Shown here: positions 1-16,834 of the stretch, piece by piece
Layout of the letters: every line of letters starts with the position of its first letter
Numbering within the stretch: position 1 is the stretch's first letter
Origin: an uncultured Porphyromonadaceae bacterium
Lineage (GTDB): Bacteria; Bacteroidota; Bacteroidia; Bacteroidales; Muribaculaceae
Direction: 5' to 3'
NCBI GenBank assembly: GCA_947643665.1
Contig: CANRWW010000019.1
Location: 1 to 52,471 of the forward strand
DNA length: 52,471 nucleotides
Notes under the pieces: generated by a model
Told to the model about the DNA's origin: nothing
Database searches by the model: none
What the model saw: the letters and a program-made list of their open reading frames with translations, nothing else
Made by a program: the position numbers and the translations under genes

Positions 1-160
1 CATCGCCAATCTTGAAAGTGGCGGTATAGGAATTGATTGTGAAAGATCCCGTAACGGTTACATCATGGGAGGGCATCGTTTCCGGCAAGCCTTCCCAACC
101 GGAGAAAGTATGACCGTCCTTTTCGGGAAAAGCCTCAGGAACAATTGATGAGCCATAGTC
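1..160. repeat. Tandem coding repeat, copy A (366-bp period)
   Basis: This stretch matches 367-526 with about 8 mismatches in 160 bases when compared by eye. The 366-bp period equals 122 codons, that is, one pair of Flg_new-type modules in the minus-strand gene. Homology decays beyond base 160 but remains recognisable to about 230. The array may continue beyond the window edge. Confidence 0.85.
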
Positions 161-1204
161 AATGCTCAATTCCTTGTAATTATTGCCATCAACGATATAG
201 GTCAGTTTATAGGAATTCACTGTATAGCTGCCGGTGATCTCTATGTCATGGGAGGGCATTGTTTCAGGAACATTATCCCAGCCGTTGAAAGTGTAACCCT
301 CTTTGACCGGGGCATCGGGAGATACTACCGGCTGGCCGAAAACTACTTCCTTGCTTTCAATAACCTCATCGCCAATCTTGAAAGTAGCGGTATAGGAATT
401 GATTGTGAAGGATCCTGTAACGGTTACATCATGGGAGGGCATCGTTTTCGGCAAACCTTCCCAACCGGAAAAAGTATGACCCTCCTTTTCGGGAAAAGCC
501 TCAGGAACAATTGACGAGCCATAGTCTACATCAAACTCTTTGTATATTTCGTTATCAACGGTATAAGTCAGGGTGTAGGTATTGACCATAAACTCGGCGG
601 CAAGAGTGATATCACTGTCAACAACTATCATTTTGGGATTGTCAGTCGTTCCATCAGACCACTGCACAAAGTGATAACCTTCGTCAGGAGTTGCAACAAT
701 ACTTAATTCAGTGCCTTCAGCCAGACGTCCACCTTCGCTACTTATAGTACCCCCGTCACCTGCCGATACAGCCACATCGAAATGACGTATTATTCTGGCT
801 ATATAAGGATCAGAAGGATAGCCCAAACTACTGTCGGATTCAAATTGAAACGACACACCTTCTACCGGTAGTGTTTCTTCTGTTTCCTTATTGTAATATC
901 TGAAAGTCATTGTTTCACCCACTGCCTGGTTACTTCTGGCACGAAGATAAAGGCATTCCTGCCCGTTTCCCAGTGGCAGATGTTCGGCAATGCCACGGCA
1001 TTCATCTCCAACGAACACACCTACATCGTAGAGCGAGTAATCCATCTCATCGGAAGCTAATGCAACCTTGAGATATAGGCTCATATCGTAGCGATAATCA
1101 CTTGGATTAACCGTCCACGGTGTCAGGGCCGAAGCCCCGACACCGCATATAACGGTCATTAAAAGAGTGATTATCGCGTTTTTGAATTTGATAATCTTAT
1201 TCAT
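1..1204 (-). CDS. Secreted protein with InlB/Flg_new-type repeats, 3' end outside window
   Basis: The gene starts at the ATG complementary to 1202-1204 and is still open at base 1, giving about 401 codons. Residues 1-26 form a signal peptide (basic start, hydrophobic core, ending GVGASA). Residues about 27-135 form a globular domain containing GVFVGDECRGIAEH, a motif that recurs near the C terminus of the neighbouring 2747-aa protein. After this comes a divergent InlB-type module (GYHFVQWSDGTTDNP), then alternating Listeria-Bacteroides (Flg_new) repeats of about 60 aa, recognisable by GHTFSGWEGLP and GYTFNGWDNVPE followed by TMPSHD. Such repeats are known from bacterial surface proteins and adhesins. 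A T9SS sorting tail is expected beyond the window but cannot be seen. It is the third gene of an operon, 11 nt after the 2747-aa gene. The exact ligand or role is unknown. Confidence 0.85.
   Translation of the reverse strand, partial: MNKIIKFKNAIITLLMTVICGVGASALTPWTVNPSDYRYDMSLYLKVALASDEMDYSLYDVGVFVGDECRGIAEHLPLGNGQECLYLRARSNQAVGETMTFRYYNKETEETLPVEGVSFQFESDSSLGYPSDPYIARIIRHFDVAVSAGDGGTISSEGGRLAEGTELSIVATPDEGYHFVQWSDGTTDNPKMIVVDSDITLAAEFMVNTYTLTYTVDNEIYKEFDVDYGSSIVPEAFPEKEGHTFSGWEGLPKTMPSHDVTVTGSFTINSYTATFKIGDEVIESKEVVFGQPVVSPDAPVKEGYTFNGWDNVPETMPSHDIEITGSYTVNSYKLTYIVDGNNYKELSIDYGSSIVPEAFPEKDGHTFSGWEGLPETMPSHDVTVTGSFTINSYTATFKIGD
367..526. repeat. Tandem coding repeat, copy B (366-bp period)
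   Basis: Second copy of the unit seen at 1-160, offset by exactly 366 bases and about 95% identical. Near identity at both silent and coding positions suggests a recent duplication or gene conversion, not old divergence. The period is a multiple of three, so gain or loss of a unit would keep the reading frame. Confidence 0.85.
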
Positions 1205-1215
1205 TTCAACAGATT

Positions 1216-4200
1216 TTAGCGTATGGCAATTTTATGATATGAGTAGTCACCGTTGCCATCAACCACGACCACATATACACCGGTAGGCAGGGTAGAAACC
1301 CTGATACCGGATTCCGTTATTGAGGTTTCATGCATCAGTTTGTGGCCATCAATATTGTAGATCTCCACAAAACCAATATGTTCGGGAGCAATGCCACTAA
1401 TGCGCAGCATATCGCCTTCGACAAAAACTTTTACATTGCCATCGAAACGAACTGCACTATTGCCACTATTTCCATCAATAACCACAACATAGGGACTGTG
1501 CACATTACCCACGGCGTTGCCGTCAAACTCAAGTGAGGCCACAGCAGTCTGATATTCAACTTCACCTTCGGCATCGGTAACACGGAGGGTTATATTGTCG
1601 CCGTTGTAGCCATAAACGCTCAACATTACCAGACCATCCACAACCCGGCCGACACCACGGCATTCGCTGCCGCAGAAAGCAGCCACCATATATTCGTTGA
1701 TGTCAAGCTGTGTGCCGGAAGCTGTACATACATTGGCTATGACCGGCATTACAGATGGATATTTATGCACATCAGCAACCAGCGGAAGCCTGGAGGCTAT
1801 GCCTGGCGCGTGGATCGCGGCGGCATTCGACACTATTGAGGTGTTATAGACCACCTGTTTGGCCGATGCACTCTGGTACATGTAGCCCATTCCGGGCGAC
1901 ATCGTTTCAAGCGTGCCTATCCATTGTTCGCCGTCGAACTGAGCGAATCCGTTCTGTCCCACAACCATGTCAAGATCCTCGGCTTCGGTGGAAGAGAGGG
2001 CTTCGGCCACAGTCATGGTCTGGCCAACAGGATAACCGAGCCAGTTCCAGCCTTCATTAAGCTCTATTGGAGTTGACGGGTTCCATGCCACATCGCTCAA
2101 GCGTAGCTTTGCAGTGGCTGCTGAAGTCTCAATCTTGTAGCTTTCGGCAGCGTTAAGCTCGGTTAGAGCGCCTACCATGCCTAGCTGCGGATCGCGGACT
2201 ACCTCCTGAGTGCTGCTCTTAATGCGGTTTACACTGGCATCAGCGGCAAAGTCGGCGGAAGCGACTGCGGTTTCCATATTGTGTGAGATCCAAGTCCACC
2301 CCTTCTCCATCTTGAAGTCCATGTCGGAATGTTTGAGAGTGTAGTTGAACTCAACGGTCTCGGAAACATCGTCATCACCGTTGCCGACAGAAGTCATGGC
2401 AAGAATCTGTGTGTCGTCATTGATAATGATGGGCACAGTGTACTTTCGGCGGGTACCGTTTTCATCACATGGGCAAGAGCCGTCGGTGGTGAAGTAGATG
2501 GTGGCATTCTTAGATTCGGTAGTCAGTTCTACCTTGGTGCCACGATAAACGGCGGTGCCGCTTGCGCGTGACGATTTCGGCGCCTCGGCGGTTATGATTT
2601 CAGTAACTACGTCAACAGCACATTCACCCGTAGCTGTCACGTCATCAATAGTGAAGGTGAGCTGAGTGCGTCCGGGGAGGTCACCCTTCACGGTTACCAC
2701 TGCCTTACCCTCATCGTCAAGAGTTGCCTCGGTTATGTCAGTCGAAGAGATGAGGTCAGAGGAGTTGGCGATGTGAAGTGTGCGGCCTACGGCAGCTTCG
2801 AAAGGTATCGCATAAACTGTAACTTCTTTCTCACCACCATAAAGTACTTTCACATCATCGGCAACTATCATCTGCACCTCTTTCTCTACATCAAGCACCT
2901 GGCTGAATGTCTCTGTCATCGGTATGCCTGCATAAGAAAGAACATTGCGGCTCACCGTAACACGGATTTCTCCCGTTGTTGCACTGAGTTTTTCTTCAGG
3001 AACAAAACGGATACGCGAAGCATAGCGGACAGCATCGGCATCATCTTCGCTTGCATATTCGTCAGCAAGAGCCGAATCTATCAGTCGGATTTCCCCGTTG
3101 AGTTTCTCGCCATTGGCGGTGACATAGATATTGGCGGTGGTCAGCGTTGACAGATCCATGAACTTGTCGAACTGCACTTCAACACCTTCCTCATAAGCAC
3201 GGGCTTCTGTAACTTCCGGCTGCTTGTTCTGCACGATGCCGATATTCACTTCAAGCTGAGGCGGAGGCACGGGCAACCATTCGCTGTAAGCGGTGACATA
3301 GCCATCCTTCTCTAATTTCACCTGCCACAGACCCTGTGGAACGTCCCAACGATACATGCCGTTCTCGTCGGTAAACAGCGGATTCTGTTGAGCATACTCT
3401 TCTGCATTCCAAAGGATGACTTCCTCATATGGGTCTCCATACATATCCTCCTTGGTCTCCTTATAATAGATTGTCGCTTGAACACCTTCTACGCGGTTTG
3501 CAGGAACGGCTTCATAGACAAAGCCTGATGGGTCAATTTGGACATTGTCTGGGATAGATCCGGATTGGTTAGCGCCACCTCCAGGCTTGTTCCCTCCACC
3601 GGGATTACCTCCATTACTACCTCCAGGATTTGGATCTGGACACGGAGGCATACCGGGCTGCCCACACTCTTTATCATTATGACATTTAAGTGTATATATT
3701 TCACTTTGTAATTCACCTATTGACCATTCAATTGAGAAATCTGCTGCAATTCCTCCTATGGTAATTACTGCTTTTGCAACAGCACCGGCTGCCGTAGCTC
3801 CTAAAGATGTTCCAGCCGTAGCAAAACTGCCTATAACACCTCCAACTATTGCGGCATCAGAAGAAAAACTACCAATAACATCCACTGTCGCAACTGCAGT
3901 CACAGCTCCCCATAAACTATAACACCAATTTCTACAAGATTGTGCATGATCCTCATCATCAGGGCAATCTTTGGGAATTGAATTATACAGAGAAAGTATT
4001 TTATCGGATTTATGATAGCAATCATTTAAAGTTGCAATATATCCGGCGAAAGGAACAGCTTTAAGCAGTCTTCGAACCAATGGTCCACAGATTCTTTTTG
4101 CAAGTTTTGCTCCAGCTAAGGCATGCGCCAATCGGTCTTCTTCAATAGCCCATTTCAACTTCTTCCCTATGTTTACCTTAGAATTGTTCTTCCAATTAGT

Positions 4201-7200
4201 AACATTCGTCAATCTGGTTTCAATTTCCAAAATTGCTTCATCAAGTTTGCTTTCAGGGAATTGCGCCAATGCTTGTAATTCAGTCCATTTTAAATTGATT
4301 ATATCCAAAATCCGTTTTATTGCTCCCATGCAAGCTGAATACTGTTGCATTGCAGTTGGTGAATCCTCGGATAACATTTTAACAAATTTAGCTTGAGACT
4401 GAGGGATATTAGACTCAATATATAAATCATTTTCAAAATCAACACAAATTACAGAACTATCTGAAACCTTACTATATACTTTAGTGCCAGAGGTGGTCGT
4501 AGTTGCTCTAAATCCATTGTTTAATAACTCATCAACGGTTACGCCGGCACAAGATTTTACAGTAAAATAGACCCCGTCAACTTCTATATTAAATTCTTTT
4601 TCGAATGTAAAAGCTGTTTCAAGATAGGACAAGGATTCTAATAGTACATTATTTTCTTCAATTATTTTCCCTAATTCATGTTCAATATACTCATCTTGAA
4701 CATCGCTTGACCACGAGTCAAAATTTTCAGGTAAAACATTCACAGACTTATCAATCGTAATTTCTATAGGGATACCCATAGAATTAGTCAAATCATAGAA
4801 TGTTTCGTAATCCAAATTATTATCTTTAAAATAATCATCTAACAATGATTGATTTGACGCGAAATCGCATGTCAATGCTTGAATCTCATCGTATGTGTCA
4901 TTTGATTCTGACAAGTCAATACATTTTGTTGATGTGTAGTCAAAATCCACAGAACAGTTGACAGGGTAATATCCATCAGATGAATTCCCCATATCAATCT
5001 CAGCATACCACATTCCTTTCTTCTCATCAAATGAAGCGTTTACAGGAACAAATTTGCCATCTGCGGTATGAACATAGAGAATGACATTTGAAATGCGCTC
5101 CGGATCATTATCCGTAAATTCAATTGTATAGGTAAATTGTTTTTGGGGATAATATACCGTCCATTGCGTTGCGGATGTCTTTGGATTCAGGAAATCAAAT
5201 ACCGATGTTTCCATGCGTCCTTTCCACCCATTTATTTCTGGATTCCAGTGGTACATCGTGACTTTTGAAACCTGAAGCGCATTCATGTCATAAGTCAGAC
5301 TTTTAGTTTCTGATGTCAGAGTATTCCCTACCGGGGTTGTGATTTCTGCATAGATAGAATGCGTTGACAGGTTATAAGGATTACTCAATGTACATTCAAC
5401 ATTCCATGAACCGGCAGCATTTGCCTTGCCACTCCCCAACAATATGCCCTCCTCATAAATATTGACTTTTGAGGAGCCTAATGCGGTACCAGAAACCTTA
5501 AACGTCGTTCCTGCTATTACACTTGGCACTGTTATCTCTATATCCTTGATTTCAGACGCTGCAGAACCGATGGGCTGAGTAATAGTGCGGCCATTGTAGT
5601 CAAAGGCAATCGAAGCGGTGGCGTTGAATGAGCCGCCGGTGGTCGGGATAACGCAGAAGCGGGTTTGGTTTTGGTAATTGTTGCCGAGCTGGACTGTCAG
5701 GCGGTTGTTGTCAAGCGTATAAGGCAAAAGGTTAGAACCTTGGATTACCGAATGCTCAACAAAGTCACAGGCTTCCGGAAGATCAACGATGAGAGTTACA
5801 TTGCTGATGTCATTCTTATACACGCCTTTGAAATCAATTGCTGAACGCAACGTCAGATAATTGCCGGTAGTAATGCTGCTCTTGTTTGAAGAGAAACTTG
5901 TCGTAGAGTTGGTGTAATAGAATAAGCTCTCATCAAAAGCGGGGACTTCCGAAATTTTGACCTCTGCGAGTTTGCCAGTCTCAACCTTGACCGCGTTCTT
6001 CACATAGTCCTTTCCCTCTGTCAGACCTATTTCAGCGAAATTTGACAGACGAAGTATAGAGTTCATCAAATCAGACTGCCCCATTGACACGAGTGTATAG
6101 TCGCCGTCTTCCAGCTCAGTGAAAGTAGCCTTTGCCTCGGAATAGGTCATCTTTTTGAGCAACTCTCCCTTGCCGGAATAGAGCATAGCTATTACTGCGG
6201 GATTTTCGGTCATTTCAAATGAAGCTGCAATACCACCTTTCCCAACGATGTCAAATGTAACTTCGGCTCGTTGGTTTTCATCAACTGTCACGGTCTCGGC
6301 AATGGGGTTGAACGCACCGGTTTTTGACGTGGCTGTAAGTTTCAGTTCATCGCCAACATTGATATTCTCGTCAAGCACAGCAAGAATCGGGTACTGGAGC
6401 GAAATCTCTTTGTGAGCGCGATTCTGTGTAACGTTAAATACGCTGACAGCCACATTCTGATAGTCGGAATAGTAATCCTGCACATCGTCAGAACCGGCGG
6501 CATGATAGGTGAATCCGTAAGTTACACGGGCACCGACAATTGATTTCAACGTCGTCTTACCGAGGTCAAGATTATTGACATCAGCAGCAAACGCTCCAAT
6601 TGTGTCGTTTACGTTGACGCACTCAGTTGCAGCGTAGGTAAGCCTGGTTTCGGGTGCATCAAGAACCGACAGATTCCACTGACCTTTGCGGTCGGTCCTT
6701 GCAGTAAATGTCTTTGAATACTTACCGTTGAGAGTCTGGTTTACTGAAACAGATGCTCCATAGAGAGACGCACCATCTCCATCAACAATCGTTCCGGTCA
6801 ACTCTATGGCACGGAAAGGTGCAAGATTAATCACGCAGGTGTTGTTGTCGGCACTGACAGTAAATCCGGCATCCTCCGGATTTGCATAAACCACACCGAG
6901 CTTATTGTCAAGAGCTACCCGGCATATCAGTTGCTGGCCGTCGGGAATCTCACCGAGCGACACCCCCCTGCGGAGATAAGTCACGGTACCGTCTGCAAGC
7001 GGTTTGAGCCATTCAACGCTTACCTGGGAGGTAACTTCCGAGCCATCAGAAGCGAATACCTTGGCAAATACAGTGTGCAAAGACTTGAGATTGTCAAATG
7101 CCACTGAAATGTCTTGGTCAGGGATAACGACGTTTTCAATACGACCAATCTCAAGACCGGCTTGCGAGAACATATATATGTTATATTGCTCGTCTTTCCG

Positions 7201-9459
7201 TAAACCGTTAAAGGTGTATAGCAGACGGTCAGAAATAACATATTTCTGTCTGACACCGGAATTGATATTTACAATCTCAAGCGAGTTGTGCTTATAGCGC
7301 CCGTCGGATGCGTCAGCCGGCAGATTAACCTGCAGTATGTGCGCATCATTGGTTATCGGTAAAATCGTGAAATCTTTCCAATATTCAGCATTGGAGTAAA
7401 GTTCAATAGCTGAAGCAGGGACATATATCGTACAATTATTCTTGTTGGTGAAACCGCTGAAAGTATAAGAATTACACGTCGGTGGCTCTTGGGCATATAC
7501 AGTCAGAGAGAGAAGATTGCTGCAATTACTGAAAGCATAATTCCCTATGCTTGTTATTGAAGCTGGAAGTGAGATGTCAGTAGCTGCCAAATCCTGAAAA
7601 GCATAGCCGGGAATATCGGTCGTACCCCCAGTCCTTGACAAGTCAATGGCATTGGCATTAGTAAGATAACCCAAACTTCCATAGTCATTAGCCGACATAC
7701 GGCCTTTTACAATCAAACTGCTTACATTGCCAAAATTGTCATTGCCAATGGTATTACCCAATGCTTGGTATAAATTCCCCATTGAGAAATCGTCAATAAT
7801 GGCCTGCCCGGTTGTAGGATTGTAATAATTCGCTCCAGGGCTGGAAGGAGAGGACGGGTCGTAGACAAACAGAGCTGTCACTTGAGCACCTTTTTCGGTC
7901 ATGATGCCGGTAAAAGTTGTTGAGGTTGTAGTCTGGGACTCTCCGTTTACAATCCATCCTTTGAAACGATAACCGGTGTTAGGCCAGGCATATACGTTGT
8001 ATTCCTGACCGAAGGTGACAGCATCGGATGATGTGCGGACGCTGCCGGCACCGGCGGGCGATACCGTGGCTGTAAGTGGATGTTTCAGCGTTGGCTGCTG
8101 TGGATCGCCAGGTCCATTTGGATTGTAGTAATAATGGGCGGTGAAAACAATGTCCTCGGCAGGCATGGTAAAGTCAATATCACGCGCCAACGGATCGAAT
8201 GTCACAACAGAACTGCTACAGCTCCAGCGTTCGAACACATAACCCGGCTGCGCGGCCAGGTAAACACTCCCCATTGCTCCGGCTGGCAACCGGGTGCTGC
8301 CTTGGTCACTGCCGGCACCCACGGGATTGCTCACAACAGTCACGTTGTAAAGGCGTGTGGTGTCGGCAGGCTGCGGGTCACCGGGCGATGACGGGTCGAA
8401 CTTCGCGTCAATTACAAACTCCACATCCTTGGCGGGCATTGCGAAAGTACAGTTATAGTAATTATACGGTTCGATTTCCAGCGGGTTTCCGTCAAGTGTT
8501 ATCGAATTGAACTTGTAGCTGTTGTTGAGACTAATATTGATATCCACCGTTTCCCCATCGGCAACCTTGAAGTTGCGGCGCCCTTCCATGGAACCATTAT
8601 AATCGCCTGTGGAGATGTAAGTATACCGGATGGCACTTTCGTTTATCTTGACTGCCAGATTATATTTGACAACATATCTGAAAGTGACTGTGCTAACATC
8701 GCTGACGCCGTTGTCGCTGACAGATATGGCTTTGACAATAACATCAGCACCAGCCGAAATGGTAATCGGGCCGGTATAGACAGTGCCGCTTGTGGCGTCG
8801 GGTGTTGAGCCGTCAAGGGTGTAACGTATTGTCGCCTCAGGGGTATTACGGTCGGCGATAGCCAGTTCGAAGTCTTCAGAGAATGTGCCTGAACTCTTCG
8901 AAAATACAGGCGCCAGCATGTGGCTCGGACTCTCTGTGAGCGTGACTGTAATGCCTGATATACGCAACTGGGTGTCATTGATCATGAACCGTGCTTCCGA
9001 CAATCGTTCACCCGTCATTGAATAGAATGGTTCCCACGTATAGGTCTGTGCTTCGGAATCATACGTTAAAATTTCACCATTCTCCGTCAACAGGGTAGTC
9101 TCTGAGTTCTTGTTAGCGTCATAGTGGAACACAATCTTTTCGAAAGTATTGTCAGTAACGCTTACAATAAATGAGTTGCCCGAGTAAAGACGGATATTTT
9201 TACCGTTGTCATAATAGGCGGGAGCTGTAATGCCACCGTCTATGGAGAAATCAATCCTTATGCCCGACGCTTCGTCGGCCATACTTTCAAGCGGCTGTAT
9301 TTTGGAACCATCGTATTCACCCTGCAGGTTGGTGTTCGGATCAGGCACCAATACCACCTCCGAAGCAGCCTGCGCGGGTATCCCTGCCGCCCATCCTGCA
9401 ATCAGCAGGACGAGCAGCATGGCATAGCGCCGCATATGTTTTAAATCTGTTATTATCAT
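1216..9459 (-). CDS. Giant multidomain T9SS surface protein (2747 aa)
   Basis: A signal peptide (MRRYAMLLVLLIAGWAAG...) begins at Met9 of the longest frame, so 9435 is a possible start. Domains by rough residue: chitobiase C-terminal-like 185-265 (RYTLDGSTPD), two divergent InlB-type modules near 405-440 and 495 (GYVFERW, GYRFKGW), a short BspA leucine-rich repeat stretch 613-710, a carboxypeptidase-regulatory-like beta domain 886-933, a low-GC unknown module about 1490-1930, a Gly/Asn/Pro linker about 1935-1965, an SbsA-like Ig domain about 2078-2170, and a second chitobiase-like domain about 2293-2376. Then come GWNWLGYP-type domains, and residues 2670-2747 look like a T9SS type A sorting tail (VEIYNIDGHKL, LPTGVYVV). 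The sorting tail implies export through T9SS and surface attachment or release. It is the middle gene of the operon. Adhesion or glycan binding is plausible but not shown. Confidence 0.88.
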   Translation of the reverse strand: MIITDLKHMRRYAMLLVLLIAGWAAGIPAQAASEVVLVPDPNTNLQGEYDGSKIQPLESMADEASGIRIDFSIDGGITAPAYYDNGKNIRLYSGNSFIVSVTDNTFEKIVFHYDANKNSETTLLTENGEILTYDSEAQTYTWEPFYSMTGERLSEARFMINDTQLRISGITVTLTESPSHMLAPVFSKSSGTFSEDFELAIADRNTPEATIRYTLDGSTPDATSGTVYTGPITISAGADVIVKAISVSDNGVSDVSTVTFRYVVKYNLAVKINESAIRYTYISTGDYNGSMEGRRNFKVADGETVDINISLNNSYKFNSITLDGNPLEIEPYNYYNCTFAMPAKDVEFVIDAKFDPSSPGDPQPADTTRLYNVTVVSNPVGAGSDQGSTRLPAGAMGSVYLAAQPGYVFERWSCSSSVVTFDPLARDIDFTMPAEDIVFTAHYYYNPNGPGDPQQPTLKHPLTATVSPAGAGSVRTSSDAVTFGQEYNVYAWPNTGYRFKGWIVNGESQTTTSTTFTGIMTEKGAQVTALFVYDPSSPSSPGANYYNPTTGQAIIDDFSMGNLYQALGNTIGNDNFGNVSSLIVKGRMSANDYGSLGYLTNANAIDLSRTGGTTDIPGYAFQDLAATDISLPASITSIGNYAFSNCSNLLSLTVYAQEPPTCNSYTFSGFTNKNNCTIYVPASAIELYSNAEYWKDFTILPITNDAHILQVNLPADASDGRYKHNSLEIVNINSGVRQKYVISDRLLYTFNGLRKDEQYNIYMFSQAGLEIGRIENVVIPDQDISVAFDNLKSLHTVFAKVFASDGSEVTSQVSVEWLKPLADGTVTYLRRGVSLGEIPDGQQLICRVALDNKLGVVYANPEDAGFTVSADNNTCVINLAPFRAIELTGTIVDGDGASLYGASVSVNQTLNGKYSKTFTARTDRKGQWNLSVLDAPETRLTYAATECVNVNDTIGAFAADVNNLDLGKTTLKSIVGARVTYGFTYHAAGSDDVQDYYSDYQNVAVSVFNVTQNRAHKEISLQYPILAVLDENINVGDELKLTATSKTGAFNPIAETVTVDENQRAEVTFDIVGKGGIAASFEMTENPAVIAMLYSGKGELLKKMTYSEAKATFTELEDGDYTLVSMGQSDLMNSILRLSNFAEIGLTEGKDYVKNAVKVETGKLAEVKISEVPAFDESLFYYTNSTTSFSSNKSSITTGNYLTLRSAIDFKGVYKNDISNVTLIVDLPEACDFVEHSVIQGSNLLPYTLDNNRLTVQLGNNYQNQTRFCVIPTTGGSFNATASIAFDYNGRTITQPIGSAASEIKDIEITVPSVIAGTTFKVSGTALGSSKVNIYEEGILLGSGKANAAGSWNVECTLSNPYNLSTHSIYAEITTPVGNTLTSETKSLTYDMNALQVSKVTMYHWNPEINGWKGRMETSVFDFLNPKTSATQWTVYYPQKQFTYTIEFTDNDPERISNVILYVHTADGKFVPVNASFDEKKGMWYAEIDMGNSSDGYYPVNCSVDFDYTSTKCIDLSESNDTYDEIQALTCDFASNQSLLDDYFKDNNLDYETFYDLTNSMGIPIEITIDKSVNVLPENFDSWSSDVQDEYIEHELGKIIEENNVLLESLSYLETAFTFEKEFNIEVDGVYFTVKSCAGVTVDELLNNGFRATTTTSGTKVYSKVSDSSVICVDFENDLYIESNIPQSQAKFVKMLSEDSPTAMQQYSACMGAIKRILDIINLKWTELQALAQFPESKLDEAILEIETRLTNVTNWKNNSKVNIGKKLKWAIEEDRLAHALAGAKLAKRICGPLVRRLLKAVPFAGYIATLNDCYHKSDKILSLYNSIPKDCPDDEDHAQSCRNWCYSLWGAVTAVATVDVIGSFSSDAAIVGGVIGSFATAGTSLGATAAGAVAKAVITIGGIAADFSIEWSIGELQSEIYTLKCHNDKECGQPGMPPCPDPNPGGSNGGNPGGGNKPGGGANQSGSIPDNVQIDPSGFVYEAVPANRVEGVQATIYYKETKEDMYGDPYEEVILWNAEEYAQQNPLFTDENGMYRWDVPQGLWQVKLEKDGYVTAYSEWLPVPPPQLEVNIGIVQNKQPEVTEARAYEEGVEVQFDKFMDLSTLTTANIYVTANGEKLNGEIRLIDSALADEYASEDDADAVRYASRIRFVPEEKLSATTGEIRVTVSRNVLSYAGIPMTETFSQVLDVEKEVQMIVADDVKVLYGGEKEVTVYAIPFEAAVGRTLHIANSSDLISSTDITEATLDDEGKAVVTVKGDLPGRTQLTFTIDDVTATGECAVDVVTEIITAEAPKSSRASGTAVYRGTKVELTTESKNATIYFTTDGSCPCDENGTRRKYTVPIIINDDTQILAMTSVGNGDDDVSETVEFNYTLKHSDMDFKMEKGWTWISHNMETAVASADFAADASVNRIKSSTQEVVRDPQLGMVGALTELNAAESYKIETSAATAKLRLSDVAWNPSTPIELNEGWNWLGYPVGQTMTVAEALSSTEAEDLDMVVGQNGFAQFDGEQWIGTLETMSPGMGYMYQSASAKQVVYNTSIVSNAAAIHAPGIASRLPLVADVHKYPSVMPVIANVCTASGTQLDINEYMVAAFCGSECRGVGRVVDGLVMLSVYGYNGDNITLRVTDAEGEVEYQTAVASLEFDGNAVGNVHSPYVVVIDGNSGNSAVRFDGNVKVFVEGDMLRISGIAPEHIGFVEIYNIDGHKLMHETSITESGIRVSTLPTGVYVVVVDGNGDYSYHKIAIR

Positions 9460-9470
9460 GATTCAGGGTG

Positions 9471-12400
9471 TTATTTGATCACTACTTTATAGGCTTTTTC
9501 AACGCCGGCAACAACGTAGACACCGGCTGCGGGTGCGTTGAAGTCGGCTATGCGGCCTTCAAACACGACGATACCGGCAGTATTGATCACTTTTACAGGC
9601 GAATCGCCCTCAGCGGCCTCTATTGCGCTGACCGATGAATGGTCAGGAGCCTTGAAAGATAGGGTGAAGCGGTTTTCACATTTCCCGGCTTTGGCGCTGA
9701 AACTATAGTCTCCGGCAGTGAGGTCGGTTGTGAGGCCTGTGATGTTATCGGTTAGCATCACTGTCCAGCCCTCGTTGCCACGGCCGCCGAGCGAGATAGT
9801 GTATTCGCCTTCAATGGCGAAACGCATGCCCAGACGGGCGGTGCCTTCTCCGAGAGGACGTTCGCAGATATCATATTTCACTGCATCGTCAACATAAACT
9901 TCCACTCCGGTGGCTGCGTCCGCAAAGAACTTGGCGGCATCACGTTCGATTTCATAAGCGGCCGAAGCCTCTTCGTTCATCACGATACGTGCCCGGTCGT
10001 CAGAACCGCAACCGGCTACATTGAAGTTGAACACGCTGCGCTGGCCGTTGGCCTGAATGCGCGCGGGAGCTTTACTTCCGGGGGTCAAATTGCTCTTTTC
10101 AGCATCGTCGAAATTCATGCGGCCTTCTACACCGAACACCATATTTTCGGCATCAAGCGGACGCTGGACGAAGAATGCTTCGTTGGGACGCAGGATGATG
10201 TCATCGTCAACTGGTGAGTAAGCCTGATAGTTGGAGCCGCGCCACAGCACGATGGGTGTGGTAAAATCCTCCATCAGAGAGTGCATGTCGTAGTAGCATG
10301 GGTAAGGATTGCCCACCAAATTCCAAGAACGGTTGTGGGCAAATTCGGCAGGATATTCCTCAAGAGGCACAATCACATTGTTCGATGTGAACAGGCGGTT
10401 CTTGGTCACGGTGTTGCGCGAGGGGAAGCAGACAACTGCCTGTTGGCTATTGCCGTTTGAATCGCTGGTGTTGTTGGCAACCTGGATTATATAGCCCTTG
10501 CCGGCTTCAAGAATGCCGTCGGCGGGAACATCTTCCCAGTTACTTGTCAAACCGTCACCGGTAGCGCGTTTTTCGCTGTTATATTTTCTGACCACGAAGT
10601 CGGTATTGTTGATACCATGTATGTCGGCCATCTGCACATCGTACTGGAACGAGATGAAATGCCATATGTTTTTCTCAAGCTCTATAGAACACAGCACACT
10701 ATCGGCACGCATGTTCTCGGCATTGTTGATCAGTGTAGTGCGGCAATCGTAGTAACCGTATTGGCGTTTGTCGAAGCGGTGGCGGATAGTGAATACTCCG
10801 GCCGAGAGTGTGCCGTCGCCTTCGGCATAAAGCTGTCCGACACCACTGTTTTTGCCTGTGTAGCTGAGAGTCATGTTGGGGTTGTCCTGCAGCACGGCAT
10901 TGTCCTCTGACAGGAGGTTGAAAACCATCGGACGATCAATATAAATGTTCTTGACTGGTTCCTGAAGCGATTTCATGATATAGAAATCCTTCCAGCCCGC
11001 AGCCTCGCGGTAAGCATCAATTGCAAAGGGAGCCACATAGAGTGTGCAATGGTTGAGGTCAACATACGACATGAATCCGGAAGCCACCGGAGGAACGATA
11101 GCTTTGCTTGTCACAGTATGCAGGCTGATGCAAGATGACAGCGCGCCAGAACCGATTGAGGCGAGTGTAGACGGCAGTGTGATGGTTTCAAGTGATTCGC
11201 AACCAGAAAACGCCGAATTATTTATGGTTGTCACCCCCTCGTTGAGTGTGATTGTTTTAAGTGCGCTGCAATTTAAGAATGCCTGCTGGCCGATTGTTTT
11301 CAGTCCGTCATTAAAAGTTATATCGCTAAGGCTGGTGCATCCCTGGAATACATAAGAACCAATCTCTTCCAATGACAGCGGCAATTTCACGCTGGTCAAG
11401 TTCGTAGATTTATAAAATGCATAGTTTTCAAGCCTGATTATACCCTCAGGGATGTCAACACTTGTAATTCCAGTTTCACTTAAGGCATAATCGCCTATAT
11501 AGGTGGGATCCTGGCTTAACGATTCTGGATTAAACGCATTGCAACCTCTGAATGCGTAGGATCCGAGATACGTTACTTTGCTTATGTCAAAATCGGTAAG
11601 TTTGTTGCAGTAGTTGAACGCACGGTCTCTGATGTAGGTTACGCCAGGGGCGTTCACGGTGGTGAGGTTGCGGCACGAATTGAATGCGCCACTTGCAATC
11701 ACTTTCAGACTTTCAGGGAACGACACTTCCATCAAAGTCTGTTTGTCTGACATGAAGTTGGCAGGAAGTTCCGGCATATCGGCTTCAGAAAGGTCAAGTT
11801 TGCGTAAAGCCGTGAGGTTTTTCATGTTCTTTAGGTCGGTTTCATTGAGCACACCTGTCACTTTCAGATACATGGCAACACCCCAGTCTGCATCGGTCAG
11901 CTCAATATAATCCTGGGCGAATTCTCCGCGTCGTTTCACGTCTAGGGTCATCCATTCGAAATCCCAACCCTGGGGCTGGATAACGGCATTATTCCAGCTG
12001 CTGTGAAGCATATAATTGTTGTAAGCGTCACGTGAACCTACATACACGATCATACTGTTGTCAAGGCTCCAGTTTGTAGAGGGAACATCGCCCTGCATGT
12101 GCAGTTCGGTGATGCTGTTTCTTGACCAGTTTACATTGATGGTGTGGTAGTGTGCGGGAACTGTTACCGATTTCAGGTTGGGAGCATTGGCAGTCAATGT
12201 GCCTGTACCTATATTGTTTTCATTACCCAAGCGATAGACGTAGTATAGACCGTCGGCATAGGGCACGTAGTCGGGCAGGGTGATTGTATCGTTCTGTGTG
12301 AAAATCTCACTGACAATAAGATTGCCGGAGTAATGTTGGATGCCGAAAAATTCATTGTCATTTTCGCCGGCGATTACATAGTCTGAGTTGGTTGTTTCGG

Positions 12401-13580
12401 GATAGAACGACTGCTCTTCACCCACGAGCACGCGTGTAAAGCCAGACCACTGGTAGTCATAACGTGACATTCCGTAGGGTATGTGCAGATAGACATCGCC
12501 GTTCTTTGTGGCTACCGAGTAGCTGAAAGATGTTTCATTGGAGATGTAGATATCGCTGATGTTTGAATCGTCAAACATCGCGCCAACATCTGTTATAGCG
12601 TTTAGATGTAGAACCTTAAGTGACTGCGCACCTTCCCAAGAAAGACTGTTGTCACCCAGCTGGATAATTGGATAGTGGGTATCTGTTATGAATACTGTCT
12701 CAGGGAGTGTGACCTCGGTTGCCGTTGTGTTTATGCCAGTAATGACAACTTCGGAACCGTTTAGACGCAGACCTAATGTGGTGGCACCGTCATCAAGTGC
12801 CACTATATAGGCGTTTTCAGGATCGTAATAACCGTTCAGCCCCAGACCTGGCAGATCGTTTTCTTCGCTCCATTTCTGGGCTGTCGGCGATGTGATGCTG
12901 TATGAGAACTCAATGTCTGCAGCTGTGACGGTTGCACCTTCGGTGCCACTTATCATGAAAGCCAGGCCAAGCGTCTTCCTATCGTTGAATTTAGCACCGA
13001 GGTTGAATGAAAGGGTATGGTTGTTTTCCTCATTCAGGTCATAAGCGCCCGAGGAATATGTTATCCAGGAGCGGCTTTCTTTATCAAGGTAAATAATGCA
13101 TGGAAAAACCAGCACGTCATCATCGCTTGTCAATGTGCCTGAAAAAGTATAATTGTAACCGGAATATCCATACCATGCGTAATAGGTTTCTCCGTCGTCT
13201 TCAAATGTACCGATTATGCTATAGACTATCTCTTCTTCACCGGCAACCATTTGCAGCGTGTTGCTGTCAACCACTGTGGGTTGTTGACTGCCGTACATGA
13301 AAGATACATTATTCCATAAATCAACCGTTGTCACGGTAGGATCTGTCACTCCAGGACTGTCTGTGCCAGAAGACACCGTGTCGGATTCTGCCGCCTTCAG
13401 TAATATTGCAGACTTGGCCACTTTGCTTTTGGCAAGCATCAGTGAGGCTGTGTCAATCGCCTGATCCGATAGGTTGACCGTCTTGCTTCCATTTCCGGAT
13501 GACAAAACCATTGCACCGCCCACTACCGTTGTGAGGGCAAACAATGCAAGTACCGTTTTTTTCATTGTGATAATTTTCAT
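9471..13580 (-). CDS. BspA-like leucine-rich repeat T9SS surface protein (1369 aa)
   Basis: First gene of the leftward surface operon; the next gene starts 11 nt after its stop. The start could be 13580 or the internal ATG at 13565 (MKKTVLALFALTTVVGG), which fits a signal peptide better. A short leucine-rich stretch lies near residues 300-345. The main BspA-type (LRR_5) array covers about 560-840, with repeats such as LEEIGSYVFQGCTSLSDI and LKTIGQQAFLNCSALKTI. A WHFISFQYDV-type domain common in Bacteroidales surface proteins follows. The last ~55 residues are a T9SS type A sorting tail (VKVINTAGIVVFEG, APAAGVYVVAG). BspA repeats are known to bind host matrix proteins or other bacteria in some oral species; here the ligand is unknown. 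No -7 box points at this gene in the present orientation of the upstream segment. Confidence 0.9.
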   Translation of the reverse strand: MKIITMKKTVLALFALTTVVGGAMVLSSGNGSKTVNLSDQAIDTASLMLAKSKVAKSAILLKAAESDTVSSGTDSPGVTDPTVTTVDLWNNVSFMYGSQQPTVVDSNTLQMVAGEEEIVYSIIGTFEDDGETYYAWYGYSGYNYTFSGTLTSDDDVLVFPCIIYLDKESRSWITYSSGAYDLNEENNHTLSFNLGAKFNDRKTLGLAFMISGTEGATVTAADIEFSYSITSPTAQKWSEENDLPGLGLNGYYDPENAYIVALDDGATTLGLRLNGSEVVITGINTTATEVTLPETVFITDTHYPIIQLGDNSLSWEGAQSLKVLHLNAITDVGAMFDDSNISDIYISNETSFSYSVATKNGDVYLHIPYGMSRYDYQWSGFTRVLVGEEQSFYPETTNSDYVIAGENDNEFFGIQHYSGNLIVSEIFTQNDTITLPDYVPYADGLYYVYRLGNENNIGTGTLTANAPNLKSVTVPAHYHTINVNWSRNSITELHMQGDVPSTNWSLDNSMIVYVGSRDAYNNYMLHSSWNNAVIQPQGWDFEWMTLDVKRRGEFAQDYIELTDADWGVAMYLKVTGVLNETDLKNMKNLTALRKLDLSEADMPELPANFMSDKQTLMEVSFPESLKVIASGAFNSCRNLTTVNAPGVTYIRDRAFNYCNKLTDFDISKVTYLGSYAFRGCNAFNPESLSQDPTYIGDYALSETGITSVDIPEGIIRLENYAFYKSTNLTSVKLPLSLEEIGSYVFQGCTSLSDITFNDGLKTIGQQAFLNCSALKTITLNEGVTTINNSAFSGCESLETITLPSTLASIGSGALSSCISLHTVTSKAIVPPVASGFMSYVDLNHCTLYVAPFAIDAYREAAGWKDFYIMKSLQEPVKNIYIDRPMVFNLLSEDNAVLQDNPNMTLSYTGKNSGVGQLYAEGDGTLSAGVFTIRHRFDKRQYGYYDCRTTLINNAENMRADSVLCSIELEKNIWHFISFQYDVQMADIHGINNTDFVVRKYNSEKRATGDGLTSNWEDVPADGILEAGKGYIIQVANNTSDSNGNSQQAVVCFPSRNTVTKNRLFTSNNVIVPLEEYPAEFAHNRSWNLVGNPYPCYYDMHSLMEDFTTPIVLWRGSNYQAYSPVDDDIILRPNEAFFVQRPLDAENMVFGVEGRMNFDDAEKSNLTPGSKAPARIQANGQRSVFNFNVAGCGSDDRARIVMNEEASAAYEIERDAAKFFADAATGVEVYVDDAVKYDICERPLGEGTARLGMRFAIEGEYTISLGGRGNEGWTVMLTDNITGLTTDLTAGDYSFSAKAGKCENRFTLSFKAPDHSSVSAIEAAEGDSPVKVINTAGIVVFEGRIADFNAPAAGVYVVAGVEKAYKVVIK

Positions 13581-13611
13581 TAGTTATTATTTATTGATAT
13601 TCATTACGTGT

Positions 13612-13644
13612 TTTTCCACTCTTGCGGTGTTTTCCCACTCTTGC
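13612..13644. repeat. Direct repeat beside left inverted repeat
   Basis: TTTTCCACTCTTGC (13612-13625) recurs as TTTTCCCACTCTTGC (13630-13644), with the shared CCACTCTTGC cores offset by 19 bases. The second copy runs into the left inverted repeat. Two near-identical sites about two helical turns apart could be accessory sites for a recombinase or regulator; that is inference. Confidence 0.6.
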
Positions 13645-13655
13645 CAAGAGATACT
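13638..13655 (+). repeat. Left 18-bp inverted repeat of candidate invertible promoter
   Basis: The sequence CTCTTGCCAAGAGATACT is the exact reverse complement of 13843-13860. It contains its own dyad (CTCTTG-C-CAAGAG), as recombinase crossover sites and operators both commonly do. It lies 58 bases upstream of the start of the leftward operon. Confidence 0.85.
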
Positions 13656-13842
13656 TGATAATATTCAAATGCACAAAAAACGTACTTTAACGCCATACAA
13701 CCACGATTTGATCAATACCCTTATGTGATATTGTTAAAACAGTGTGTTTTTCAACGGGTAATATTATATCGTTACATCTAAAATAATTTCGTGTTGATTA
13801 GTTTTATTTTGAATAGTTTACGTATCTTTGCACATAATAATC
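13656..13842. other. Candidate invertible segment (187 bp) carrying a promoter
   Basis: This segment is bounded by perfect inverted repeats and includes the -7 box TATCTTTG at 13823-13830, now pointing right at the 938-aa gene. Inversion about its centre would move the box to 13668-13675 on the minus strand, with transcription starting near 13661, about 80 nt before the leftward operon. Invertible promoters that switch surface genes are well known in Bacteroidales (for example the B. fragilis capsule loci). That this segment inverts is inference from layout. The alternative is a divergent control region with two copies of a palindromic operator. Confidence 0.6.
13823..13830 (+). promoter_or_regulatory. 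-7 promoter box of the 938-aa adhesin gene
   Basis: TATCTTTG fits the Bacteroidetes -7 consensus TAnnTTTG and is followed by CAC. Transcription should start near 13837, giving a leader of about 180 nt before the ATG at 14018. No good -33 TTTG is present at the usual 19-21 bp spacing; weak candidates are TTG at 13794 and TTTG at 13808. Confidence 0.7.
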
Positions 13843-13872
13843 AGTATCTCTTGGCAAGAGATACTGATTATT
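13836..13872. repeat. 37-bp perfect palindrome at predicted transcription start
   Basis: The 18-base arms 13836-13853 and 13855-13872 are perfect reverse complements around a single G at 13854. The palindrome begins 5 bases after the -7 box, so a transcript would open with this hairpin, or a repressor dimer could sit on the start site. The inner part is the right inverted repeat of the candidate invertible segment. Confidence 0.9.
13843..13860 (-). repeat. Right 18-bp inverted repeat of candidate invertible promoter
   Basis: Read on the plus strand this is AGTATCTCTTGGCAAGAG, the exact reverse complement of 13638-13655. Because of the internal dyad, 13848-13865 also matches the left copy as a direct repeat with only the centre base different. 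Recombination could in principle invert or delete the segment, but only the inverted match is exact over 18 bp. Confidence 0.85.
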
Positions 13873-14017
13873 GAATAATGGATTTATTCTTTTTACCACA
13901 TATCTTAATTATTGTTAAATAACTGCGTAATACGGCGTTTGTATGGAAATTTCACGATATTTGTTTTTTAGAAATTTTCACACACCCGACAATGCGGGTT
14001 AATCCGATCATTATTTT

Positions 14018-16834
14018 ATGCCTAAATTTTTTCGCACCTCGCTGCTGATTGTTGCCAGCATCTGCAACATGCACTCATGGAGCGCCGAAAGCGTGCCATA
14101 CGCATCAGAACTCGGTTCGCCGTACGGTATTGATTCCGACTGGTACAATACCCGTGGAAACGGCTTAAAACCATGGAGCAACGTCACCGGTGATTTCGGT
14201 GGACAATGGGGAAATACGGATTGTACAAATGGCATAAGATATGTCTACTCTGAGACATCGGATGCTGACGCATGGCTCATATCGCCCGACATAGCCCTAG
14301 AAGCTGCAAAAGACTATTATTTAACAATATGGGTCCGCACGGAATTTTCACCGGAAAACTTCCGGGTGACAATAGCGCAAGGTGATACCCCAGAGGAGCA
14401 ACGAAACGGCACCGTCCTCATTGACATGGAAAACGAGGCAGTGATGGGACGCTGGAAAAGGCTTCGCAAGAGTTTTCGGGTAGATGAAACCGGAAATTAC
14501 AATTTCGGTCTCAACTGCTACAGCAAAGCCAACCAATTCACTCTCTACGTCACCGGATTCTCACTCATTGAGGGTGACGGCACACATGCCGTGGAAGTAA
14601 TCCCGGCAGCCGTACCAGTAATCAAACCTCTCCCCTACAAGGCCGGATTTCCGGCTGATTGCATACACTGGTCTGCCATAAGAGGCCGCAATGCATCAGG
14701 ACAAGGCGCATGGTATTATGAACAGGGAGACAATTCATATGCATTTGTAGATCCGGATGAACAAGAAGACAACTGGCTCGTCTCTCCCGCGTTTGAATTC
14801 CCTGAAGCCGGCGACTACAAGATATCTGTTTCAGCCGAAAGTTTCGGTGTGCTTGACTGGTTTCTCGGCACCGATCCGGCTGATCCGGAAACATTCACTT
14901 CTCCCCTGGGAGGCACATCATATCCAGGAACAACCGGCGCCACGCTAGTGACAATAGACAAACCGGGCACATATTACGTCGGATTCCATGCCCATGCCGA
15001 AGAGGGAAGTACAATGGGGTATGGCGTGTATGGTCTAAATGTGCGAATGGTAAAGGAGTGGCCACAACCTGTAACCGACCTCCGCACCGCCGTAGATCCC
15101 AACGGTGGCATGACTGTAGAACTTAACTGGACCAACCCGTCGCTCACACTCAAAGGCAACCAACTGGGCACACTGAAAAAAGTGGAGATATACCGCGACG
15201 GAAAACCTATCGGCACTATATCGGATGCGGTTCCGGGCAAAAAAAGTTCTTATATTGACAATACAGTGGACAGCCCCGGACTACACACATATAAAATCTT
15301 GCCTTACAACGAACTGGGCACATCCATGGAAGATGCGTGCGAAGTGGAGACCATGTATGTGGGAACTGGAGTAGAACCATTCCCATACACCTGGACCACA
15401 GGCTCGGAACATGAGCACTACGAAGCGCTCACAAAATGGGTAACCCACAATCCGGCCGGAACGGATCGTGAATGGAACATTGACTTCGGGTGGCGTTACT
15501 GCTGGGCCTCCTGGAAATTAACAGACGCGCAAAATGACGACTACCTCGCCACCCCATATATCGCCCTGGAAAAAGGATACTATAAAGTATCTTTTGAAAC
15601 CAACGACCGGCATACCAACTATGATTTTGGCTATTTGACAGACCGGGCAGATATACCGGGCACATTCGTTGCTGTTGAAAGTTTCCGCATGTGGGATCAA
15701 TTTGGCAACCATGAGAACTCCACTATCATAAATATCCCTGCCGACGGAAATTATGCCATGGGATGGCATCATGTAGAAGGAACCGAAGACAAATGCAGAA
15801 TTGAATTGTACTCCATCAAGATGGAAAAAATCCTTCCGGTACCGGCCATTGCAGAAGAACTCCTGGCGGAAGCCTCACAGGATTTCTCTTTATCTGCTGA
15901 AATATCATGGCGAAACCCCAAAGTAGATAACGCCGGTAATCCGCTAGAAACAATAACCCGTGTTATACTTCTCCGTAATGCCGAACGAATAGCAGACCTC
16001 AAAGAGAATGTGGCACCAGGACAAAAAATGTCATTTACCGATACTGGCATTCCTGAAGCCGCTGAATACGAATACACTGTTGAAGTATTTAATGAGAACG
16101 GAAAAGCACAGACGCTTCCGGCTTCCGTGAAAGTCTATGTCGGCAAGGGGGAAGCGATACCTTACGAAGCGAAACTGCAAAGCTGGACAAGATACAATCT
16201 TGACCGTGACAATTACGAGTGGAGCAATATGGAAGGAGGCGGCATAAGGTTCTATTCTCGGTTCTCGGATTCCGACGACTGGGCTGTGTCACCGCAAATA
16301 TACCTTGAACCGGCAAAAGAGTATGAGATAGCCGTCGAAACCTCCACGATCTCGGAATATCCAGTCAACTGGGATATTTGCACATCCACAATAAAAAATC
16401 CAGCAGAAATGACAACTTTGGCAACCATTACCATACCAGCCAAAGCAGAACGCCACCCCGACAAAATACGCATTACAACTTCTACAGAAAATGCCGGCGA
16501 TATGGCCTTATTTTCCCCAGGCAACCACGTATTTGCCGCCCATGCCACAGGAATGGGAACCATCAACCTGCATAGTTTCAAAATAGAAGAAGTGGAATCT
16601 GTCGGCATAAACGTTGCAGAAACAGAACGCGATATCCAAATTATTATCAAAGGGGATACAATGATACTACCTTCCGGTACCGACATTGTCCGCATCTACG
16701 ACATCACCGGCCGCATCATCGGCTCGCTCATTGTATCCGGCACCACTCTATCCACAGAAAGCCTCCCTGCCGGCATCTCCATCATTGAGGCCACCGGCGC
16801 CTACGGCAGATCATACATTAAAATCTCACGATAA
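14018..16834 (+). CDS. T9SS adhesin-like protein with choice-of-anchor J and Fn3-type domains (938 aa)
   Basis: Residues 1-23 are a signal peptide (TSLLIVASICNMHSWSAES). Four beta-sandwich modules of the cleaved-adhesin/choice-of-anchor-J type are marked by DAWLISPDIAL (about residue 88), DNWLVSPAFEF (about 247), a third near 470-600 with DDYLATPYIAL, and DDWAVSPQIYL (about 752). Fibronectin III-like modules lie between them (VELNWTNPSLTLKGN, AEISWRNPKVDN). The last ~65 residues form a T9SS type A sorting tail (VRIYDITGRIIGS, LPAGISIIEA). The protein is therefore probably secreted by T9SS to the cell surface. It stands alone, divergent from the BspA operon, and ends at a strong bidirectional hairpin. 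Its expression probably depends on the promoter inside the candidate invertible segment. The start ATG precedes the only signal peptide; no clear Shine-Dalgarno is visible. Confidence 0.88.
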   Translation: MPKFFRTSLLIVASICNMHSWSAESVPYASELGSPYGIDSDWYNTRGNGLKPWSNVTGDFGGQWGNTDCTNGIRYVYSETSDADAWLISPDIALEAAKDYYLTIWVRTEFSPENFRVTIAQGDTPEEQRNGTVLIDMENEAVMGRWKRLRKSFRVDETGNYNFGLNCYSKANQFTLYVTGFSLIEGDGTHAVEVIPAAVPVIKPLPYKAGFPADCIHWSAIRGRNASGQGAWYYEQGDNSYAFVDPDEQEDNWLVSPAFEFPEAGDYKISVSAESFGVLDWFLGTDPADPETFTSPLGGTSYPGTTGATLVTIDKPGTYYVGFHAHAEEGSTMGYGVYGLNVRMVKEWPQPVTDLRTAVDPNGGMTVELNWTNPSLTLKGNQLGTLKKVEIYRDGKPIGTISDAVPGKKSSYIDNTVDSPGLHTYKILPYNELGTSMEDACEVETMYVGTGVEPFPYTWTTGSEHEHYEALTKWVTHNPAGTDREWNIDFGWRYCWASWKLTDAQNDDYLATPYIALEKGYYKVSFETNDRHTNYDFGYLTDRADIPGTFVAVESFRMWDQFGNHENSTIINIPADGNYAMGWHHVEGTEDKCRIELYSIKMEKILPVPAIAEELLAEASQDFSLSAEISWRNPKVDNAGNPLETITRVILLRNAERIADLKENVAPGQKMSFTDTGIPEAAEYEYTVEVFNENGKAQTLPASVKVYVGKGEAIPYEAKLQSWTRYNLDRDNYEWSNMEGGGIRFYSRFSDSDDWAVSPQIYLEPAKEYEIAVETSTISEYPVNWDICTSTIKNPAEMTTLATITIPAKAERHPDKIRITTSTENAGDMALFSPGNHVFAAHATGMGTINLHSFKIEEVESVGINVAETERDIQIIIKGDTMILPSGTDIVRIYDITGRIIGSLIVSGTTLSTESLPAGISIIEATGAYGRSYIKISR

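Follow-up and report, generated by a model that had tools for sequence, protein, structure and literature searches.

Judging from its own sequence and from that of related loci, the 223-bp segment at positions 13638-13860 of the window (the whole stretch of 52,471 nucleotides analyzed here) very probably belongs to the invertible promoters, a general kind that is already known. It very probably represents a two-way variant of that kind with a clear site rule. With high confidence, the segment is read as an invertible promoter that would act as a two-way selector through a tyrosine recombinase of the L021:1756-2988 family. The preliminary description of this DNA had proposed an invertible promoter, and that proposal was strongly supported by matched paired sites, by one promoter per segment, by a linked tyrosine recombinase, and by inversion in two of 16 comparisons between related loci. 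The features concerned are as follows.

13638..13860, no strand: putative invertible segment with both sites, 223 bp, of which 197 bp separate the 13-bp cores
13638..13655, plus strand: left inverted repeat, with the core CTCTT-GCC-AAGAG at 13638-13650
13843..13860, minus strand: right inverted repeat, with the core at 13848-13860 and the same spacer as the left site in inverted orientation
13836..13872, plus strand: perfect 18+1+18 palindrome enclosing the right site, a predicted 17-bp hairpin in the early transcript of the present orientation
13608..13644, no strand: 19-bp direct repeat with extra CTCTTGC half-sites, immediately outside the left site
13823..13830, plus strand: Bacteroidota -7 box TATCTTTG, facing the 938-aa gene and separated from the right core by 17 nt
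14018..16834, plus strand: 938-aa protein with a choice-of-anchor J domain and a signal peptide recognized by eye, currently faced by the putative promoter
9471..13580, minus strand: BspA-type protein of 1369 aa with leucine-rich repeats, encoded by the gene that opens the opposite set
1216..9459, minus strand: 2747-aa protein that carries a T9SS type A sorting domain; its gene follows that for BspA after 11 bp
2..1204, minus strand: InlB-type repeat protein, cut off by the contig edge, with which the visible part of the opposite set ends

Repeats, promoter box, and flanking genes

The exact 18-bp inverted repeats were confirmed: CTCTTGCCAAGAGATACT at 13638-13655 is the reverse complement of 13843-13860, and no other exact inverted repeat in the whole window reaches 18 bp with its arms 50-500 bp apart. 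When up to three mismatches were allowed, the 18-mer had three matches in the window against 0.04 expected, the third of which overlapped the right copy. A genome search for the 18-mer, suggested in the preliminary description, was run on the 2.6 Mb of sequence in 68 contigs and returned one further match, with two mismatches and on another contig, while the control returned two. The dyad reported inside each repeat is real (CTCTTG-C/G-CAAGAG), and each repeat contains a recombination-type site, CTCTT-NNN-AAGAG. Four such cores were found in the genome, including the two of this pair; the other two may be chance occurrences, as the reversed control also gave two per strand. The spacers of the pair, GCC and GGC, are identical and inverted at the two sites, as is characteristic of the CTCTTNNNAAGAG family, and the short inverted repeats surround an intergenic segment, as in Bacteroidales invertible promoters. 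No match was found for a 24-base piece of the segment in viral contigs, and a search of the whole gap for DNA relatives in 60 related genomes returned short matches only, in three of them. The half-sites in the 13608-13644 repeat are perhaps leftovers of duplicated sites.

As had been claimed, the divergent gap (13581-14017) contains no TAnnTTTG other than TATCTTTG, whichever strand is read, and the coordinates given for its inverted position were correct: inverting the segment would move it to 13668-13675 on the minus strand. With this TAnnTTTG inside it and close to one repeat, the segment again resembles Bacteroidales invertible promoters. No -33 element was evident by eye at the usual distance from the box. 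When folded, the stretch 13836-13900 gave a 17-bp hairpin (z -7.65), which would open the transcript in the present orientation. Flipping would shorten this leader hairpin, since the outer half of the left site reads differently. In B. fragilis, according to the available portion of PMC4747536, expression is inversely correlated with how many repeats separate the promoter from its genes. Taken with the leader hairpin, this suggests that the two orientations at 13638-13860 may differ in strength.

The flanking products had been described as T9SS surface proteins, a label that held for one of the three complete proteins scored. The 2747-aa protein passed the Por_Secre_tail cut-off of 23 bits (27.3 bits for the whole protein and 36.1 for its tail alone) and can be assigned to the T9SS type A class. 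The other two did not reach the cut-off: the whole 938-aa protein was not listed and its tail alone scored 17.4 bits against the cut-off of 23 (E 0.0033), and the 1369-aa BspA protein had no Por_Secre_tail match. The fourth flanking protein, of the InlB type, is incomplete at the contig edge, and the tally refers to the three complete proteins.

The paired-site family across genomes

Pairs of the CTCTTNNNAAGAG site 141-201 bp apart were found in 110 of 397 Muribaculaceae genomes, and the reversed pattern, used as a paired control in the same genomes, gave none among the matches listed. A palindrome search of 61 genomes found pairs in other genera, and an order-wide sample had them in four of 149 genomes, namely two Muribaculaceae and two of the 146 others. 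The latter two genomes contained eight pairs among the matches listed, seven of which were matched and inverted and one direct. The 2.1-Mb genome G423, from another family of the order, had seven paired sites (one of them direct), the most among the matches listed. In genome contigs, a search with the GSC spacer returned 48 stretches, 42 of which were titled Bacteroidales or subgroups thereof, including 13 Muribaculaceae. The stretches L073, L088, and L101 (JAMPAQ010000001.1) and L080 (JAMPBQ010000003.1) are titled Pseudoflavonifractor or Clostridium and are identical to stretches of the Muribaculaceae genomes G023 and G232; these titles look wrong.

For comparison of the loci, 79 stretches were fetched, of which 74 covered the 75 pairs listed from a larger total, three came from G023, and G001 and G022 contributed one apiece; the G022 pair has a 402-bp gap and was admitted by hand. 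Together with the window these formed a set of 81 pairs, which 17 loci from a second listing extended to 98. The spacers were matched and inverted in 79 of the 81 pairs, with two direct, and in 96 of the 98 pairs, again with two direct, against a mean of 4.8 and a maximum of 15 when partners were permuted. All 30 pairs of the second listing (17 genomes), 17 of which are also in the 98-pair set, had spacers that match inverted. An earlier, overlapping set of 84 combinations 100-450 bp apart included 78 inverted, two direct, and four unmatched, the two direct combinations being from records titled Patescibacteria and Akkermansiaceae. The two direct pairs of the larger set, L149 and L151, each have a third site that is inverted and carries the same spacer. 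At both loci the three one-spacer sites, two direct and one inverted, lie between divergent SusC-type genes and resemble a three-site version of the switch.

Tyrosine recombinases generally require matching bases between the two recombinase arms for strand exchange. The matched spacers therefore point to recombination sites rather than operators, as operators would not need matching. A role of the spacer as a private address, selected to differ between the loci of one genome, was also considered but not supported: five same-spacer pairs within genomes were found against 3.4 expected in the 21 genomes with at least two pairs.

The position of the promoter box was similarly regular. A TAnnTTTG lay within 8-30 nt of exactly one end in 95 of the 98 segments and of neither end in three, compared with about four having a box at exactly one end in the shuffled control of 97 segments (one with N was dropped). 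The 81-pair set has 80 box positions, 73 of which lie 14-17 nt from the site; the distance is 17 nt at 13823-13830. Among 49 loci with one neighbour reading away from the segment, the box faced away from that neighbour in 27 and toward it in 19, with three unclassed. Such mixed facing suggests switches caught in either state by assembly, as fixed promoters are not expected to mix. L176 (G067:C11) has a single recombinase gene with two switch segments beside it; these are separated by about 500 bp and are 96% alike, but their spacers differ (ATT and ACT).

Recombinase and orientation of related loci

The tyrosine recombinase gene at L021:1756-2988 in genome G023 encodes arm-binding, SAM-like, and catalytic domains. 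Its homologues were found within 2 kb of 23 of the 98 pairs, a lower bound given that at some loci the flank extends for no more than 1.5 kb or is cut by the edge of the contig, and in 22 cases the 3' end of the gene was toward the pair. Across 77 genomes of at least 99% completeness, tallied by eye, a homologue at E 1e-60 occurred in 30 of the 31 that have pairs and in 26 of the other 46 (Fisher p 5.7e-5). G168, which has pairs, had no homologue at E 1e-60, and the 30 include G018 and G026, whose recombinase hits contain a stop codon. Matches to the recombinase were also found in 85 plasmid records, and the 12 of these that were listed are 47-48% identical and belong to Bacteroides, Parabacteroides, and Phocaeicola.

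Natural inversion was observed between related loci. For example, L111 (G079) and L123 (G130) are orthologous, with colinear flanks of 2 kb each that are 93.4% and 99.5% identical, and the 163-bp segments between their sites are 93.9% identical on opposite strands. The box points toward a 552-aa gene in L123 and away from that gene in L111. Similarly, L068 and L102 share a left flank of 71 bp (97%) and a right flank of 83% identity over 2.4 kb, and their segments are 91.4% identical over 186 bp in inverted orientation. Orientation was counted over 130 segment entries, among which related-locus segments aligned over at least 70% provided 28 comparisons. Ten of these were identical copies, nine from duplicates of one assembly and one from a site counted twice. 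The remaining 18 included 15 with the same orientation and three inverted, or 14 and two after repeats through duplicate records were subtracted, and 10 of the 14 came from one cluster of five loci. As judged from these alignments, related loci do show inversion, in a minority of two of the 16 distinct comparisons. The duplicated locus of G268 (L163 and L164) was rejected as evidence of inversion, as its copies share their orientation relative to the flanks.

In the window, no homologue of L021:1756-2988 was found at E 1e-15. The search of the genome for invertases that the preliminary description had called for did find a tyrosine recombinase homologue, but one split over contig ends beside repeated sequence. 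Residues 1-221 of this closest homologue are at C36:39-668 and residues 213-409 at C48:14182-14772, and both pieces stop at contig ends, where they break the protein at one common point. Some 55 bases are common to the ends of C48 and C59 and some 54 to the start of C36 and the end of C35, and related motifs face each other (contigs C36, C48, C35, and C59 of G000 correspond to L221, L218, L220, and L219). This pattern suggests a mobile element in two copies, one in the recombinase gene (C36/C48) and one between C35 and C59, with its interior missing from the assembly. The closest recombinase of the window genome may be inactive as a result of the interruption. Across the genome, seven integrase-family matches were listed, C48 among them. 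A serine invertase was also considered as the actor and set aside; the genome has one resolvase-family match, on C5.

The earlier term toggling was only partly supported, because the closest recombinase homologue of this genome appears interrupted. Owing to that interruption, the present copy of the segment may be locked facing the 938-aa gene. A relic of this kind, which evolved as an invertible promoter and is now locked by a mobile element in the recombinase, is compatible with the invertible-promoter reading, and we consider it slightly less likely than not. It would account for the two gene pieces (C36:39-668 and C48:14182-14772) ending at one place in the protein and at contig ends, and for the sequence at both broken ends being repeated at C35 and C59. 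However, the repeats are still exact across 18 bp, other tyrosine recombinases in the genome could act on them, the assembly is a fragmented draft, and intact and broken copies may be mixed in a population.

Two-way layout and comparison with known systems

Neighbouring genes were surveyed by a mechanical reading-frame call of at least 100 aa, taking the first neighbours within 700 bp; both neighbours were in view for 86 pairs, and 12 contig-edge pairs were set aside. Of the 86 pairs, 36 (window included) have both neighbours reading outward, 49 have one such neighbour, and one has none. A Pfam scan covered 126 of the 129 away-reading neighbour entries, with the omission of two of L164, which are near-copies of those of L163, and one duplicate. 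It identified the TonB plug domain in 18 neighbours and the NusG domain in 22, such as that at L110:3260-3820. We take NusG to be the domain of UpxY-type capsule regulators, and given the 22 of 126 matches many switches may control capsule loci. SusC-type receptors were found on both sides of L126, L149, L152, and L188, and L151 is a relative of L149. As read from these gene arrangements, one invertible promoter amid divergent surface operons is a recurring layout, to which the window conforms with the 938-aa anchor-J protein to one side and the BspA / 2747-aa / InlB-repeat proteins to the other.

In the proposed mechanism, a tyrosine recombinase of the L021:1756-2988 family (G023) would recognize CTCTT-NNN-AAGAG at both ends and exchange strands within or beside NNN, which would have to match. 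The segment would flip because the sites are inverted. A single outward promoter about 15 nt inside one site would drive the 938-aa protein in the assembled orientation and the BspA / 2747-aa / InlB-repeat genes in the flipped one, and the outcome would be a two-way selector rather than an on/off switch. The two-way switch had been put forward in the preliminary description, and the layout fits it, given the sole consensus box in the gap and the divergent layouts common in the family. The mutual exclusion of the two sides is something that we infer, as are the cutting of CTCTT-NNN-AAGAG sites by this recombinase family and the following of the box by transcription. On a broader scale, the odds appear even that the Muribaculaceae possess a family of see-saw promoters (SusC versus SusC, or adhesin versus BspA set) in which one alternative is always expressed and never neither, with matched spacers confining exchange to like sites and with the window as a selector possibly frozen by recombinase loss.

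Invertible promoters are usually described as on/off, whereas a single promoter between divergent surface operons would impose an either/or choice with no silent state. Such a choice, if true, alters what is predicted for binding, for recognition by the immune system, and for escape from phages. Switches would become findable from sequence alone, without reads, by the site rule of CTCTT and AAGAG around three matched bases, with a promoter about 15 nt inside. The rule reaches across an abundant gut family, and the either/or prediction becomes directly testable.

A one-way version, in which the segment inverts but the 938-aa gene alone depends on it as an on/off switch and the BspA operon is served by a weak fixed promoter elsewhere, is unlikely. 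It would be consistent with the left-facing near-consensus boxes that the segment contains (TACGTTTT and TGCATTTG, the latter at 15 nt from the left site), as well as with the single away-reading neighbour in 49 of 86 pairs. However, the gap has no TAnnTTTG toward the BspA gene, no more than 57 bp of the BspA leader lie beyond the segment, and a left-facing promoter within the segment would flip too. Much less probable still is the reading of the palindromes as operators of a repressor or activator common to two fixed divergent promoters. Palindromic sites near the likely transcription start and the long perfect palindrome at the right agree with it. However, operators would have no use for spacers that are matched and specific to the locus, and such matching was found in 96 of 98 pairs; given also that 95 of 98 segments carry the consensus box at one end only and that two related loci show inversion, this reading was rejected. 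A miniature inverted-repeat transposable element, which the short length and inverted ends recall, was likewise rejected as the least probable reading, since most segments do not align to each other among the matches listed, their ends have locus-specific spacers, and the L111/L123 element has kept its position while its orientation differs.

The two-way selector reading was compared with systems in print. In the system of PMC3090145, as far as the available text describes it, a tyrosine recombinase inverts a local and a distant promoter through inverted repeats, the products are surface components, and the repeats are duplicated at the segment ends, all of which resemble the present case. Unlike 13638-13860, whose neighbours both read away, it is described as an on/off switch for one operon, and its IVp-II is without effect on the upstream groES/EL genes. 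The Bacteroidota invertons of PMC11892184 are alike in the available text in having inverted repeats around a Bacteroidota promoter, tyrosine-type invertases nearby, and TonB-receptor and RagB/SusD targets. The words divergent and bidirectional are absent from the main text of that paper. The CTCTTNNNAAGAG motif may be one of the motif groups of PMC11892184 or Jiang et al. 2019. In the accessible part of PMC8748976, on Bacteroidales mobile elements, the segment similarly adjoins an invertase gene, the promoter has the -7 element TANNTTTGY, and capsule genes (upxY) are among the targets. There, all identified cases adjoin an invertase gene, in contrast to 23 of 98 pairs here and to the window, where no such adjacency was seen. 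The Mpi-type capsule promoters of B. fragilis, as portrayed in the excerpted PMC4747536, are also invertible and precede capsule operons; in the present survey, 22 of 126 neighbours match NusG. Mpi belongs to the serine recombinases, unlike the tyrosine recombinase gene linked to CTCTTNNNAAGAG pairs.

Neither the CTCTTNNNAAGAG site family nor the two-way layout was described in the available text of the literature found, including PMC4747536, PMC3090145, PMC8748976, PMC11892184, and PMC10994844, supplement motif tables aside. The motif may already be in print, for example in such tables. A search for the site as text in six spacer versions gave literature matches that were off topic by title (canine stem-cell screening and microRNA in osteoarthritis), and the literature search found no paper combining an invertible promoter with Muribaculaceae.

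Flagellar phase variation through Hin in Salmonella is a further parallel, in which inversion decides which of two surface proteins is expressed. In that system the recombinase, Hin, is of the serine type, and exclusion uses a repressor. The segment at 13638-13860 differs in that its single promoter would point at either side.
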